This document shows, piece after piece, positions 5,172 through 35,742 of a stretch of DNA of 35,742 nt. The translations under genes and the position numbers were made by a program. Below the pieces are notes generated by a model. The model did no database searches and was not told the DNA's origin. It saw nothing but the letters and a program-made list of their open reading frames with translations. The number at the start of each line of letters is the position of its first letter. Position 1 is the stretch's first letter. This DNA is from a virus, in IMG/VR virus record IMGVR_UViG_3300038825_000899, positions 1 to 35,742 of that record; one strand, written 5' to 3'.

Positions 5172-5342
5172 TTAAACCGGCCTTAGCCGGCTAATGTCCA
5201 TACTTAACTCATTGTTACGGTCGTAATTATCCCAAGAATAATTCTTGATCCATTTTTCCGCCTTATTATAGCTTTTAAACGGGCCGTGTACAATCGGGTC
5301 ACTACTACACCAAGTTTGAACAACTATATAATTCTCTTTCAT
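5172..5342 (-). CDS. Small hypothetical protein (56 aa), last gene of the minus operon
   Basis: The protein begins MKENYIVVQTWCSSDPIVHG and ends SRLRPV. Its pattern, VVQTWCSSDPIVHGPFKSYNKAEKWIKN, is that of a small alpha/beta protein, but I do not recognise a family. ATG 5342 overlaps the upstream stop by four bases (ATGA) and has the GAGAGGTTA leader at 5347-5355 (minus strand). A short CCGGC/GCCGG hairpin (5177-5190) lies over its last codons, ahead of the main terminator. Confidence 0.75.
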   Translation of the reverse strand: MKENYIVVQTWCSSDPIVHGPFKSYNKAEKWIKNYSWDNYDRNNELSMDISRLRPV

Positions 5343-6225: not shown

Positions 6226-6346
6226 TGTTAACCTCTCTTTGTTTGTTTTGTATTAATGTGTTTTTATATTGGTTGCGCTCTTGTTTGACGTGGTATAGTC
6301 TCACATAAAGCGCAATAATAATAATAGTTAATATTATACTATCCAT
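6215..6346 (-). CDS. Small single-pass membrane protein (43 aa)
   Basis: The protein starts MDSIILTIIIIALYVRLYHV and continues with a charged tail KQERNQYKNTLIQNKQREVNND. It therefore has one N-terminal membrane helix and a short hydrophilic tail. GGAGGTTA directly upstream is the strongest ribosome-binding site of the operon. The gene overlaps both neighbours by a few bases. Its function is unknown; phage micro-membrane proteins are often inhibitors or superinfection-exclusion factors, which is analogy only. Confidence 0.68.
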   Translation of the reverse strand: MDSIILTIIIIALYVRLYHVKQERNQYKNTLIQNKQREVNNDI

Positions 6347-6521
6347 TTTTTTTAACCTCCAAATTATGCAATTTTAAATATTTGATCATATTTGAAATAG
6401 CTTCAAACCTGCTATTACGACCCGGCACGCCGTCACCGTTTGGATTGGCGCTTAAATCAATAATGATCTTATGCCCTAGTTCTGCCAACTCTTGCCACTC
6501 TTTATTATTAAAAGTACTCAT
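6339..6521 (-). CDS. Small hypothetical protein (60 aa)
   Basis: The sequence MSTFNNKEWQELAELGHKII, then a Gly/Asn-rich turn (NPNGDGVPGRNSR) and a second helix (FEAISNMIKYLKLHN), suggests a compact two-helix protein. No family is recognised. It has a GAGAGGTTA leader (6526-6534, minus strand) and follows the Cys-rich gene by 3 bases. Confidence 0.75.
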   Translation of the reverse strand: MSTFNNKEWQELAELGHKIIIDLSANPNGDGVPGRNSRFEAISNMIKYLKLHNLEVKKNG

Positions 6522-6524
6522 TTT

Positions 6525-7211
6525 CTAACCTCTCTTATTTAGTATGTTATTAACTGTTTTCTTTTGTGTTCCGTGCGCCGGAAAGTATACAATTGACTTG
6601 CGTGTTTTAACTTCGCACAATTGACACGTTGCGCAACTTACATTATTATTATCTGTTGTTGCCGGACATTGTACAAATTGCTTACCGCCTTTTTTAAACG
6701 CGCCTTTAGTTTCACTATCTGCAACAGATACAACCGGGCCAACATTTAATTTGCTTAGCTCTATGGCCTCATCAATACTATTACCGGATAAATTCACAGT
6801 GAAACCGGCTTTATTCATTGCTTTAATTATTACGCCGTTGCCGTGTTTATTTGGGTTGTAATGCGTGTAAGTGAAACCGCGCTTGCCTTTATTGGCCTTG
6901 GTTAACTCTTCGCATGCGTCACCGTCTAAACGCTCATTGCTTCCGGGTAGGTCGCCGGCTTGGTTGTGTCTCCATAATTGGCCTTTTGGTAGTGCTTTTA
7001 TTTTACCTAAAAACTCTTTGAACGTGTCACCGCGTAAGCCGTTTGATACTTTGTTCCAATGCCACGAAACCGGCCCGGTTTTAGCATAACAACCGGCGTT
7101 AATAAATGGACATGACGGCGGACACGTTGACGCTTCTGTAGTGCTTACCGGTATTGGCCCTACCTTGCTATTTGATGACACTCTTGATAAATGAGTAATA
7201 TATTTATTCAT
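6525..7211 (-). CDS. Cys-rich phage/plasmid protein of unknown function, GCYA...HW type (228 aa)
   Basis: First gene of the minus operon. The N-terminus reads SKVGPIPVSTTEASTCPPSC, followed by PFINAGCYAKTGPVSWHW, giving CPPSC and GCYA cysteines with a conserved-looking HW. A second cluster, CPATTDNNNVSCATCQLC, lies near residue 185. These Cys sets could bind a metal or Fe-S centre. The layout matches an uncharacterised family I have seen in phages and plasmids (I believe DUF7227, from memory and unchecked). RHNQAGDLPG and VNLSGNSIDEA are other blocks likely to be conserved. A GAGAGGTTA leader lies at 7217-7225 (minus strand). The cysteines argue for catalysis or nucleic-acid binding, not structure. 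Confidence 0.85.
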   Translation of the reverse strand: MNKYITHLSRVSSNSKVGPIPVSTTEASTCPPSCPFINAGCYAKTGPVSWHWNKVSNGLRGDTFKEFLGKIKALPKGQLWRHNQAGDLPGSNERLDGDACEELTKANKGKRGFTYTHYNPNKHGNGVIIKAMNKAGFTVNLSGNSIDEAIELSKLNVGPVVSVADSETKGAFKKGGKQFVQCPATTDNNNVSCATCQLCEVKTRKSIVYFPAHGTQKKTVNNILNKRG

Positions 7212-7244
7212 TGTTCTAACCTCTCACAGTTTGTTAATTAATAT

Positions 7245-30550: not shown

Positions 30551-31305
30551 TGGCTGCAACTATATATTACGATAACTTAGATTCACGTTCTGCAACATTA
30601 ACCGATGGAACTACTGGTAGCTTTGCTTTTAACAGTAGTGACGTATTATCCAATGAACTTCGTGCCGTAGATGGAAACATTACAGATGTCATTGGTGGGT
30701 GGGCAGTCAATGAAGGTTTGCAGTTTAATTTTGGCACTGCTGTAAACCCTACATTTTGCGCTATATATAGTACAGTAGCAACAGGTAATGATATACTAAT
30801 ACAACGTGATAATGCAGCAAGTGGAACTTTTAATGGTATTATTAATACTATAAATGATCTTGCCGTTGGGTGGAACATTAGAACGCTTACTGCGTTACAG
30901 ATGCAATATTGGACTATTAATAGCGCAGTTGGAGATTTAACTGGTATATCAGAAATATTTTTTGGCAATCCATTTGAACTACCAGTACAACCTACGGCAA
31001 ATATAATTACTGCACATAATTTTGGTTCAGAAGAAGTAAAAGCACTTGGTGCTAATCGTTATTATTTTAGTAAGCATGATAACTTTAAAACACTTACACT
31101 TAGTTTAGATCACATGACTAGCGCAAATAAAACTAGCCTAGAAACATTTGCTAATACAGTAACTGATCGCGAACCTTTTATATATAGTGAAGATGGTACT
31201 ACTGGGCCATTTCATTGGGTAAGGTTAGTTCGCCCACTGACATTCAGGCAAATAGCACCTGATATATATTCTACTCAATTAGTATTAAGAGAACTTACTG
31301 CTTAA
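30550..31305 (+). CDS. Tail-tip protein B (251 aa), tandem paralogue, last late gene
   Basis: A duplicate of protein A along its full length, including the C-terminal strands (IYSTQLVLRELTA). The two probably sit together at the tail tip and may differ in receptor-binding loops. The stop lies 11 bases inside the convergent integrase gene, with no terminator between them. Confidence 0.78.
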   Translation: MAATIYYDNLDSRSATLTDGTTGSFAFNSSDVLSNELRAVDGNITDVIGGWAVNEGLQFNFGTAVNPTFCAIYSTVATGNDILIQRDNAASGTFNGIINTINDLAVGWNIRTLTALQMQYWTINSAVGDLTGISEIFFGNPFELPVQPTANIITAHNFGSEEVKALGANRYYFSKHDNFKTLTLSLDHMTSANKTSLETFANTVTDREPFIYSEDGTTGPFHWVRLVRPLTFRQIAPDIYSTQLVLRELTA

Positions 31306-32401
31306 CAATATCAATGAAAGCATTGTAAGCAGTATCATTAATTGCTTGTTGCTCTTCAATGGTTGTGCCTGCATAATGATTATGCACTACCTCAGTTGTT
31401 TTATCACCAATACCTTTTGATGCTTGCGTAACATCCTGAGTCTCATTGCGCAATACTTGCGCTTTCATTCTGCGTAAATCATGGCACGTAAATTTAATGG
31501 CTACAATACTACTGATTTGTTTAATTAATGCATTTAGCTCTTTGTAGTTCATATCAAGCGGTCTATCAGCTCCGCTTCTAAAACGCTTCTTTAATATTGC
31601 AATAGCACTTGGATGTACTGATGCCGTTTCTCTTATTTGACGGCGCTTTTGCAATAACTGCATCTTATTACCAATAAAGTCAATATGATGCCAGTGTAAC
31701 TCCTTGTATGGCTTTTTAGTATTGTGGCCAACTAATTCATTAGCACGAACACCAGTAATAGCAAATAACCACAATATATCTTTTTGCTCTTGTGATAGTT
31801 CAGAATGGTTGAAGATATAATTGATTTCTTCATTGGACCATACTTTAAATGTAAGCGGTGCAAGCTCATGCTTTTTATAGCGATCGCTTTTACGCATAAT
31901 GCGCTTATCTATCAACTCTTCCTCATAGGCCCAATTAAATATGTGCAATAAATCTCTCATATAACTATCTATACCACGGCGTGAACGATTGTGCTGATAT
32001 TCCATAATATGTTTATATATGGTCCAACCAGTAACCGCAACACCCATTACGTTTTGTGATGTAGTGCGGACTTCAGATGCAATTGTATTGCCAGGAAAAA
32101 CTTTTTTGCAACTATTAATCACTACATTATATTTAGCGATTGTGTCTACATTAGTTAATGTGCTTAGTACATTATTAGTAAAAGCCGTAAATATCTCATC
32201 TAATGTTTTTTGTGGTGCTTCATTATATAATAATGCGCGCCAGTTCATATTGTTCTTAGCATACAATTCTACTTGCTGCCAATGACCTAGTGCAATAATT
32301 GCTTCTTCTTTAGTTTTAAAGTATCGTTGTTTTCTTTTACCATCGCGTGGATCACGATATGCAACCTTATATGAATTACGAAATGTGTTTAAACTTGCCA
32401 T
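31295..32401 (-). CDS. int: Tyrosine recombinase (integrase), 368 aa
   Basis: It catalyses site-specific integration and, with a directionality factor, excision. An N-terminal arm-type DNA-binding region (YKVAYRDPRDGKRKQRYFKT) is followed by a core-binding domain and a catalytic domain with Arg219 (ITGVRANELVG), a Lys near 252, His307-Arg310 (CHDLRR), His340/His342 and nucleophile Tyr343 (HNHYAG). All key residues are present, so it looks active. The message has GAGAGGATAAA before ATG 32401. No excisionase or att site was recognised. Confidence 0.93.
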   Translation of the reverse strand: MASLNTFRNSYKVAYRDPRDGKRKQRYFKTKEEAIIALGHWQQVELYAKNNMNWRALLYNEAPQKTLDEIFTAFTNNVLSTLTNVDTIAKYNVVINSCKKVFPGNTIASEVRTTSQNVMGVAVTGWTIYKHIMEYQHNRSRRGIDSYMRDLLHIFNWAYEEELIDKRIMRKSDRYKKHELAPLTFKVWSNEEINYIFNHSELSQEQKDILWLFAITGVRANELVGHNTKKPYKELHWHHIDFIGNKMQLLQKRRQIRETASVHPSAIAILKKRFRSGADRPLDMNYKELNALIKQISSIVAIKFTCHDLRRMKAQVLRNETQDVTQASKGIGDKTTEVVHNHYAGTTIEEQQAINDTAYNAFIDIVKQ

Positions 32402-32423
32402 TTTATCCTCTCAATTATATTTG

Positions 32424-32501: not shown

Positions 32502-32708
32502 ATGGAACAAACACATACCAAAGTAAAATTTAGCGAATTGTTATCTCAGAATAAAATTTCGCAACGAAGACTAAGCGCACTAGTCGGCATAAGTCCGGCA
32601 CTCCTTACGATGATGCTAAAAGGTGAGAGAACATTTCAATTTAGACATCGCGACAATATATCGCGTATATTTAATGTTCAAGAAGATAGCATCATTTGGC
32701 ATGAATAA
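32502..32708 (+). CDS. Cro/C1-type HTH regulator (68 aa)
   Basis: The protein has a single HTH of the XRE type: FSELLSQNKISQRRLSALVG then ISPALLTMMLKGERTF (about residues 10-45), followed by a short tail. Its small size, with no oligomerisation or cleavage domain, fits a Cro-like protein. ATG 32502 is chosen over TTG 32490. Neither has a Shine-Dalgarno site. Location next to two operator copies and opposite the integrase makes it the best candidate to read the TGTGAACA sites. I recognise no separate CI-like repressor. Confidence 0.83.
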   Translation: MEQTHTKVKFSELLSQNKISQRRLSALVGISPALLTMMLKGERTFQFRHRDNISRIFNVQEDSIIWHE

Positions 32709-32710
32709 TT

Positions 32711-32793
32711 TGGGGCGACATCCTTCTTGTTTACACAGTGTACTGCACTGTGTTTTGATTCTAACCTCTCAATTGAATCCTCAAGTCGCCCCA
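32711..32793 (+). ncRNA. Predicted structured leader with antisense-like loop
   Basis: TGGGGCGAC (32711-32719), starting two bases after the regulator's stop codon, pairs perfectly with GTCGCCCCA (32785-32793), whose last base is the A of the next ATG. Inside lies a second hairpin: ACACAGTG (32733-32740), loop TACTG, CACTGTGT (32746-32753). The loop on the 3' side contains CTAACCTCTC (32761-32770), which is complementary to the GAGAGGTTAG leader of the minus operon. It may be a leader that controls the next gene, or a regulatory RNA. Confidence 0.45.
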
Positions 32794-33041
32794 TGATTTT
32801 TAGAGTACACATAAAAGATGATAATGAACAGATACGCATAGCGCGCAAAATACGTTCATTGCTAGATATATATAAGATAGATAATAGCACATATGAACCT
32901 GACAACGCTGATATTGGTATTAAAGTACATCAAGAATTGGATAAAGAAATTCTAACACAAGTAATTGGGTTAGTGCAAAGAAGTGATTATAAAATCACAT
33001 TAATCGATAATGAAAATAAGGAAAAACAATATGTCAAATAG
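32793..33041 (+). CDS. Hypothetical early protein (82 aa)
   Basis: ATG 32793 begins MIFRVHIKDDNEQIRIARKI. An upstream in-frame TTG (32727) would add 22 residues encoded by the structured leader and is rejected. Beta-alpha pattern (IFRVHIKDDNEQIRIARKIR; DYKITLIDNENKE). There is no ribosome-binding site before the ATG, and the closing arm of the leader stem touches it. It overlaps the SSB gene by 11 bases. Confidence 0.65.
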   Translation: MIFRVHIKDDNEQIRIARKIRSLLDIYKIDNSTYEPDNADIGIKVHQELDKEILTQVIGLVQRSDYKITLIDNENKEKQYVK

Positions 33042-33567
33042 TTTAAGTGGACTAGATATACCGACCAGTGAATCAGGCGGTCTATTTATGAAAAAGCTAG
33101 AGCAAGGTGAGAACAGAATGCGCATCCTTACTACGCCAATACAAGGTTATGTACATTGGCCTGAAGGTTCTAATAAACCAGTTAGGTATCACGGACCAAC
33201 CGATATACCAACTGGCGTAAAAGATGCAAAGTACTTTTGGTTTCTTACTATTGCTATTAATGGCGAAGTAAAATTCTTAGAAATTAAGCAAAAGACTATC
33301 CTCAGTCAGATTAAGGCACTATCTGATAATAAAGAATGGGGCGAAGTGCAAGACTATGACATCACTATTACACGTAGTGGTCAGGACCTAGAGACACAAT
33401 ATACAGTCGTTCCAAATCCTAAAAAGGCACTAGATGATGATGTGGCAAAACAGTGGGCCGACATGAAGGCACGCTATAACGCTGAAAATCTTTTTACCAA
33501 TGGATCTCCGCTGGATGCAGGTGAAGAGAAACAGCAAGACGCTAAAGAAGAAGAGTTGCCGTTTTGA
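33031..33567 (+). CDS. Single-strand DNA-binding protein, gp32-like (178 aa)
   Basis: The blocks FMKKLEQGENRMRILTTPIQ, GYVHWPEG, AKYFWFLTIAINGEVKFLEI, QKTILSQIKALSDNKEWGEV, YDITITRSGQDLETQYTVVP and the acidic tail AKEEELPF match gp32-like SSBs of marine phages; the acidic tail is the usual partner-docking tail. It coats single strands during replication and recombination. ATG 33031 with AAGGAAAA upstream is preferred over ATG 33010. Confidence 0.8.
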   Translation: MSNSLSGLDIPTSESGGLFMKKLEQGENRMRILTTPIQGYVHWPEGSNKPVRYHGPTDIPTGVKDAKYFWFLTIAINGEVKFLEIKQKTILSQIKALSDNKEWGEVQDYDITITRSGQDLETQYTVVPNPKKALDDDVAKQWADMKARYNAENLFTNGSPLDAGEEKQQDAKEEELPF

Positions 33568-35589: not shown

Positions 35590-35742
35590 TCTTAAAGTAA
35601 TATCACTAGGTCTAGGCGTACAGTCTACTGCAATGTATATGATGAGTTCATTAGGTTATATACCTAGAGCAGATCATGCAGTGTTTGCTGACCCTGGCGC
35701 AGAATTACCTATGACATATGAGATATTAGAAGTCTTAAAGGA
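35564..35742 (+). CDS. PAPS-reductase-like protein, 5' part (continues at 1-764)
   Basis: ATG 35564 starts MKNTPSSANLKVISLGLGVQ and runs off the end of the window in frame with the coding segment at 1-764. It overlaps the previous nuclease gene by 26 bases and carries the PP-loop-like motif of the full 267-residue protein. Confidence 0.88.
   Translation, partial: MKNTPSSANLKVISLGLGVQSTAMYMMSSLGYIPRADHAVFADPGAELPMTYEILEVLK
35604..35742. repeat. Terminal overlap, right copy
   Basis: Identical to 1-139 except for one base (35665 T, 62 G). See the left copy for interpretation. Confidence 0.95.

Follow-up and report, generated by a model that had tools for sequence, protein, structure and literature searches.

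In stop/start translational coupling, a stem hides a start codon until a ribosome on the upstream gene opens the stem. Most of the known phage antisense immunity RNAs belong to a small number of phages that infect enteric bacteria. The C4 RNA of phages P1 and P7 is structured, and its complementary loops pair around the ribosome-binding site (RBS) of an immunity-related mRNA (PMC12197685). The OOP RNA of lambdoid phages is antisense to the lysogeny gene cII and favours the lytic cycle, and the sar RNA of phage P22 is an antisense RNA impairing translation initiation of the regulator ant (PMC12197685).

The window analysed here was a 35.7-kb virus record (35,742 nucleotides). Its first 138 bases reappeared at its end as a direct terminal repeat (1-138 and 35605-35742), so the genome was probably complete, and the repeat suggested a circular genome. 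The element under study, at 32711-32793, is probably an intercistronic RNA of the lytic (Cro-side) operon that would have two jobs, with an anti-RBS loop acting in trans and a start-codon cage acting in cis (probability about 0.7). It was surrounded by the following genes.

31295-32401, minus strand: integrase, heading the divergent lysogeny operon of the window
32503-32708, plus strand: Cro/C1-type HTH gene (HTH_26), with the stop codon TAA at 32706-32708, 2 nt upstream of stem P1 of the element
32793-33041, plus strand: gene of an 82-aa protein with a predicted ferredoxin-like fold, with its ATG at 32793, without a Shine-Dalgarno sequence, overlapping the start of the next gene
33031-33567, plus strand: single-stranded DNA-binding protein (SSB) gene, with an 11-nt overlap with the 82-aa gene

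The gene of the 82-aa protein (pLDDT 91.5 for the predicted fold) always adjoined the element and the SSB gene, and the protein had no match in Pfam or PHROG. A CI-like HTH repressor gene was located upstream of the integrase in many relatives (L004:3305-4099 on the minus strand, and its equivalents). This gene was absent from the window, and lysogeny control there must therefore differ. The phage family was temperate, marine and uncultured, and was represented in metagenomes only. No close isolate was found, the SSB reaching at most 31% identity over 85% and the integrase giving none, and prokaryote genomes contained no relative.

By analogy, the nearest functional relative of the element would be the C4 RNA of P1/P7 and, for the direction of the effect, OOP. 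The element resembled C4 as a structured phage RNA whose loop shows complementarity to a regulatory gene's RBS in its own phage. C4 blocks the antirepressor (ant) and favours lysogeny, whereas action on the predicted targets of the element, repressor and integrase, would favour lysis. Unlike C4, the element was located inside the lytic operon, held a start codon in its stem and matched no Rfam family; no family reached the gathering threshold in the window, and a search of 12 related loci up to E=1 gave nothing but an unrelated weak AdoCbl-II match. C4 targets ant on the same transcript, whereas the predicted targets here were the divergent integrase or CI-like repressor gene and minus-strand genes. 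Because of these differences in target and family match, the element was classed as a variant of phage antisense regulation and not as a C4 RNA. OOP shares with the element an antisense sequence against a lysogeny gene and the lytic direction, which is predicted for the element. However, OOP is cis-encoded and fully overlaps its target, whereas the element would pair over a short stretch, through its loop, with the mRNA of a non-overlapping divergent gene. The sar RNA differs in target and direction, and is a cis-encoded antisense RNA whereas the element is an intercistronic three-way structure. In contrast to the cis-encoded antisense RNAs of the OOP and sar type, the element and its target leader were 0.3-0.5 kb apart and did not overlap. 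Compared with general stop/start coupling, the element adds a predicted trans-acting antisense loop, and its stop and start codons are directly juxtaposed.

On the plus strand, 32711-32793 folded into a three-way junction composed of stem P1 and hairpins P2 and P3, with the following parts.

32711-32719, plus strand: 5' arm of P1, TGGGGCGAC, pairing with 32785-32793
32722-32729, plus strand: unpaired CCTTCTTG, kept among near relatives
32733-32753, plus strand: hairpin P2, 4-9 bp, different in length and sequence among relatives
32757-32779, plus strand: hairpin P3, GATTC/GAATC, with arms at 32757-32761 and 32775-32779 and a 13-nt loop
32761-32770, plus strand: anti-RBS loop CTAACCTCTC, consisting of P3 loop bases and the first flanking base
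32785-32793, plus strand: 3' arm of P1, GTCGCCCCA, whose final A is the A of the ATG start at 32793

P1 was an exact 9-bp stem closing on the ATG of the next gene, as the original prediction had described it. The hairpin that it placed inside this stem was also present (P2), but the antisense segment assigned to the loop of that hairpin was found in the loop of the third hairpin, P3. The fold of the window element gave z = -5.7 on the plus strand and -6.5 on the minus strand, and 0 of 200 shuffles was equally stable. Since the complement folded as stably, the functional strand was not told by folding alone. The unpaired CCTTCTTG is possibly bound by a protein, and no consistent trans partner for it was identified across near relatives. 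The segment CCUUCUUG was considered as a second antisense seed and, though conserved, was rejected for lack of a consistent partner. A tRNA, tmRNA or att-like relic was also rejected (ARAGORN reported no tRNA), as was a coding sequence, which was interrupted by in-frame stops in several relatives. The length differences of the element between near relatives were often multiples of 3.

Relatives were located by the SSB protein, which gave 20 loci, and a search by sequence pattern gave the identical set and one extra. The structure and loop were found in about 25 related phage contigs, a recurrence that excludes chance. Every relative found had the same architecture, in which the HTH gene was followed by the element, the small ferredoxin-fold gene and the SSB gene. 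All near relatives had the element between the upstream stop and the downstream start, with a variable P2. The distant relatives L068 (SSB 51%), L070 (SSB 46%) and L138-L142 kept the architecture with quite different stems. The upstream gene was exchanged among phages, being a Cro-like HTH gene in some and an excisionase-like HTH gene in others, with both in L068. The element and the downstream genes stayed linked although the upstream gene changed, and the element was thus regarded as a part of the downstream cistron. Wider pattern scans gave no members beyond the phage family. A weak covariance-model match at L019:8801-8870 (minus strand) lay in a cytosine methyltransferase gene, did not contain the loop and was judged to be a chance match.

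Compensatory changes in the stems, which the original prediction had proposed as a check, were found among the relatives. Over 8 distinct P1 stems, all 72 of 72 pairs were standard and 10 changes were two-sided, and either value was reached by 0 of 5000 shuffles. When read on the plus strand, P1 contained 4 G-U and 0 C-A pairs, which indicated that the functional RNA is the plus strand. Because P1 varies in a compensatory manner, the plus-strand RNA structure is conserved. Eleven relatives folded singly gave z values between -3.8 and -6.4.

In all 18 groups, the P3 loop showed complementarity to the RBS of the gene that headed the divergent lysogeny operon, either the integrase or the CI-like repressor gene. 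A plus-strand RNA with an RBS-pairing loop had been predicted, and this part was retained; its target common to all 18 groups was the divergent lysogeny gene and not the accessory operon that had been proposed. The integrase as the sole conserved target was rejected, since some relatives place the repressor before the integrase and the target was whichever gene came first. The positions in the window that are complementary to the loop were as follows.

32407-32416, minus strand: target 1, a 10-nt complement of the loop, AATTGAGAGG, within the RBS of the integrase
7214-7226, minus strand: target 2, a 13-nt complement of the loop, TGAGAGGTTAGAA, at the RBS of the gene for the DUF7227 protein (6525-7211)
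6523-6534, minus strand: target 2 group, GAGAGGTTAGAA in the RBS of gene 6339-6521, complementary to the loop
5344-5355, minus strand: target 2 group, GAGAGGTTAGAA in the RBS of gene 5172-5342, complementary to the loop

The match with the integrase RBS of the window covered 10 contiguous nt and ranked 5th, after the accessory RBSs, with an A-A mismatch mid-pairing in the leader. In every genome the own divergent leader ranked 1 to 5 among 11-69 RBSs. The loop and the divergent RBS co-vary across phages, as is evident from the sequence comparison, and lysogeny control would in this way be linked with other genes, as had been anticipated. Where the loop contained UAUCC, the leader had GGATA in all near cases and in L068; among groups with UAACC loops, two had GGTTA in the leader and the remaining ones had different bases there. 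The loop flank CAGUUG faced CAAC in the leaders of both L020 and L004, with the integrase downstream in one and the repressor in the other. In L141 and L142, the loop UUUAUCUUUCCUU and the repressor leader AAGGAAAGATAAAC formed a 14-nt perfect match with a sequence unlike that of the window, and the exact 14-mer was present in those contigs only at the repressor leader and the element. Some matches used a G-U pair (L140, L020), and the pairing was weak in L010, L016 and L139. Given the short distance between the element and the target leader, the loop and the leader may be co-inherited.

The pairing of each loop with its own divergent leader in the 18 groups had a mean of -15.1 kcal/mol, against -11.5 kcal/mol for shuffled partners. 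Permutation of loops against leaders over the 18 groups reached this in 1 of 200000 cases (p about 5e-6), and in 30 of 200000 (1.5e-4) when stratified by clade; one representative per distinct loop gave p 0.0005-0.001. With the groups permuted singly, the near relatives alone gave a weaker p of about 0.006, so the strength of the test derives partly from the distant group. An earlier 14-group test (near relatives and L068), in which loops were permuted as clusters, gave 0.008 or, with groups weighted equally, about 0.05. When the flanks were shuffled and CCTCTC was kept, 0 of 2000 loops reached the real value.

A second group of targets, supported in part, comprised minus-strand genes in some genomes, including the window. 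As in the original prediction, GAGAGGTTAG was located upstream of three minus-strand genes (starts 7211, 6521 and 5342), and the shorter GAGAGGTTA upstream of two further genes (5734 and 6225). The plus-strand gene at 975 was also preceded by GAGAGGTTAG. With at most 1 mismatch, GAGAGGTTA had 13 occurrences, against 5.6 expected. The window loop matched the minus-operon RBSs over 12-13 nt. The RBS homologous to that of the DUF7227 gene had an A matching the U of the loop in L014 (13 nt), and paired with one G-U in L020; a minus-strand gene of L142 gave a match of -20.5 kcal/mol. When the divergent leader was excluded, each genome's own loop was best or tied in L004, L014, L019 and L142 and close to the best in the window and in L016, but not best for these targets in L012, L020 and L139. 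Pairing with multiple messages is therefore plausible in some genomes only. The DUF7227 protein is common in Pseudomonas phages and present in some cyanophages.

In the proposed mechanism, we infer that the RNA is synthesized and acts as a repressor. The exposed P3 loop would pair in trans with the RBS of the divergent first gene and, in some genomes including the window, also with RBSs of the minus-strand accessory operon. This pairing would block 30S binding during transcription of the lytic operon, and the lysogeny genes would probably be switched off by the loop RNA.

The chief competing explanation is a shared DNA site, in which a repressor, a Cro-like protein or the integrase binds both copies as an operator or recombinase site and its specificity drives the co-variation. 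One shared binding protein would indeed yield similar co-variation, and, read on the plus strand, the two copies form direct repeats that flank regulatory genes. Nevertheless, the leader copies were located at Shine-Dalgarno positions, even between genes inside the minus operon, and the other copy always occupied the apical loop of a plus-strand hairpin that covaries. Furthermore, L141 and L142 had just two exact copies, whereas operators usually occur in sets, and the matches of L140 and L020 require a G-U pair. This explanation is disfavoured and was considered unlikely.

In the two-job RNA, the second function would be exerted in cis by P1. The closing pair of P1 took in the first base of the start codon, as U-A where this was AUG and as C-G where it was GUG. 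The stop codon of the upstream gene was located at P1 or within the stem. In L138-L142, CAC-UAG/UAA paired with CUA/UUA-GUG, and the helix held both the stop and the GUG start. The downstream start codon was predicted to be paired with a probability of 0.79-1.0 in context. By sequence and predicted pairing, the start was thus blocked by structure, with an upstream stop within it and without a Shine-Dalgarno sequence of its own, and translational coupling would be the natural reading. This cage against the upstream stop codon was not part of the original prediction. P1 would hold the 82-aa gene start against the HTH stop codon, and a ribosome halting at that stop would occupy the P1 5' arm. Only a ribosome arriving at the HTH stop would free the 82-aa start, and the 82-aa gene, along with the SSB gene that overlaps it, would then be coupled to HTH translation; this mode of coupling is what we infer from the caged start.

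These features would also be expected of a switch acting in cis only, in which the P1 cage is combined with autoregulatory binding of the loop by the 82-aa protein or SSB, and the RBS complementarity is a by-product. The start codon in a stem, the missing Shine-Dalgarno sequence, the stop at the stem foot, the inheritance of the element with the downstream genes and the ferredoxin-like fold are all in line with such a switch. It does not account, however, for the joint change of the loop and the divergent RBS, and the 82-aa fold had no solved relative at E < 0.001; this reading was likewise judged improbable. A relic of the minus-operon leader cassette, left in minus orientation after loss of a small gene, was an alternative offered in the original prediction and is very improbable: the reverse complement of the loop resembles an RBS, but the element was conserved, with compensatory changes, in about 25 contigs, its G-U pairs were consistent with the plus strand only, and no relative had a minus-strand gene at the site.

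The fuller combination within one RNA, a stop/start cage tying replication genes to Cro-side translation and a co-evolving loop silencing both repressor or integrase and accessory RBSs, was held tentatively, at slightly under even odds. Its design would be compact, with a single hairpin acting on one gene in cis and on others in trans. Comparative sequence analysis indicates that, in uncultured marine phages, a lytic-operon RNA has co-evolved with the RBSs of lysogeny genes at the RNA-RNA level, and would add a concrete and testable RNA layer to the lysis-lysogeny switch. If true, the lytic mRNA itself would regulate the decision between lysis and lysogeny as an RNA with multiple targets.
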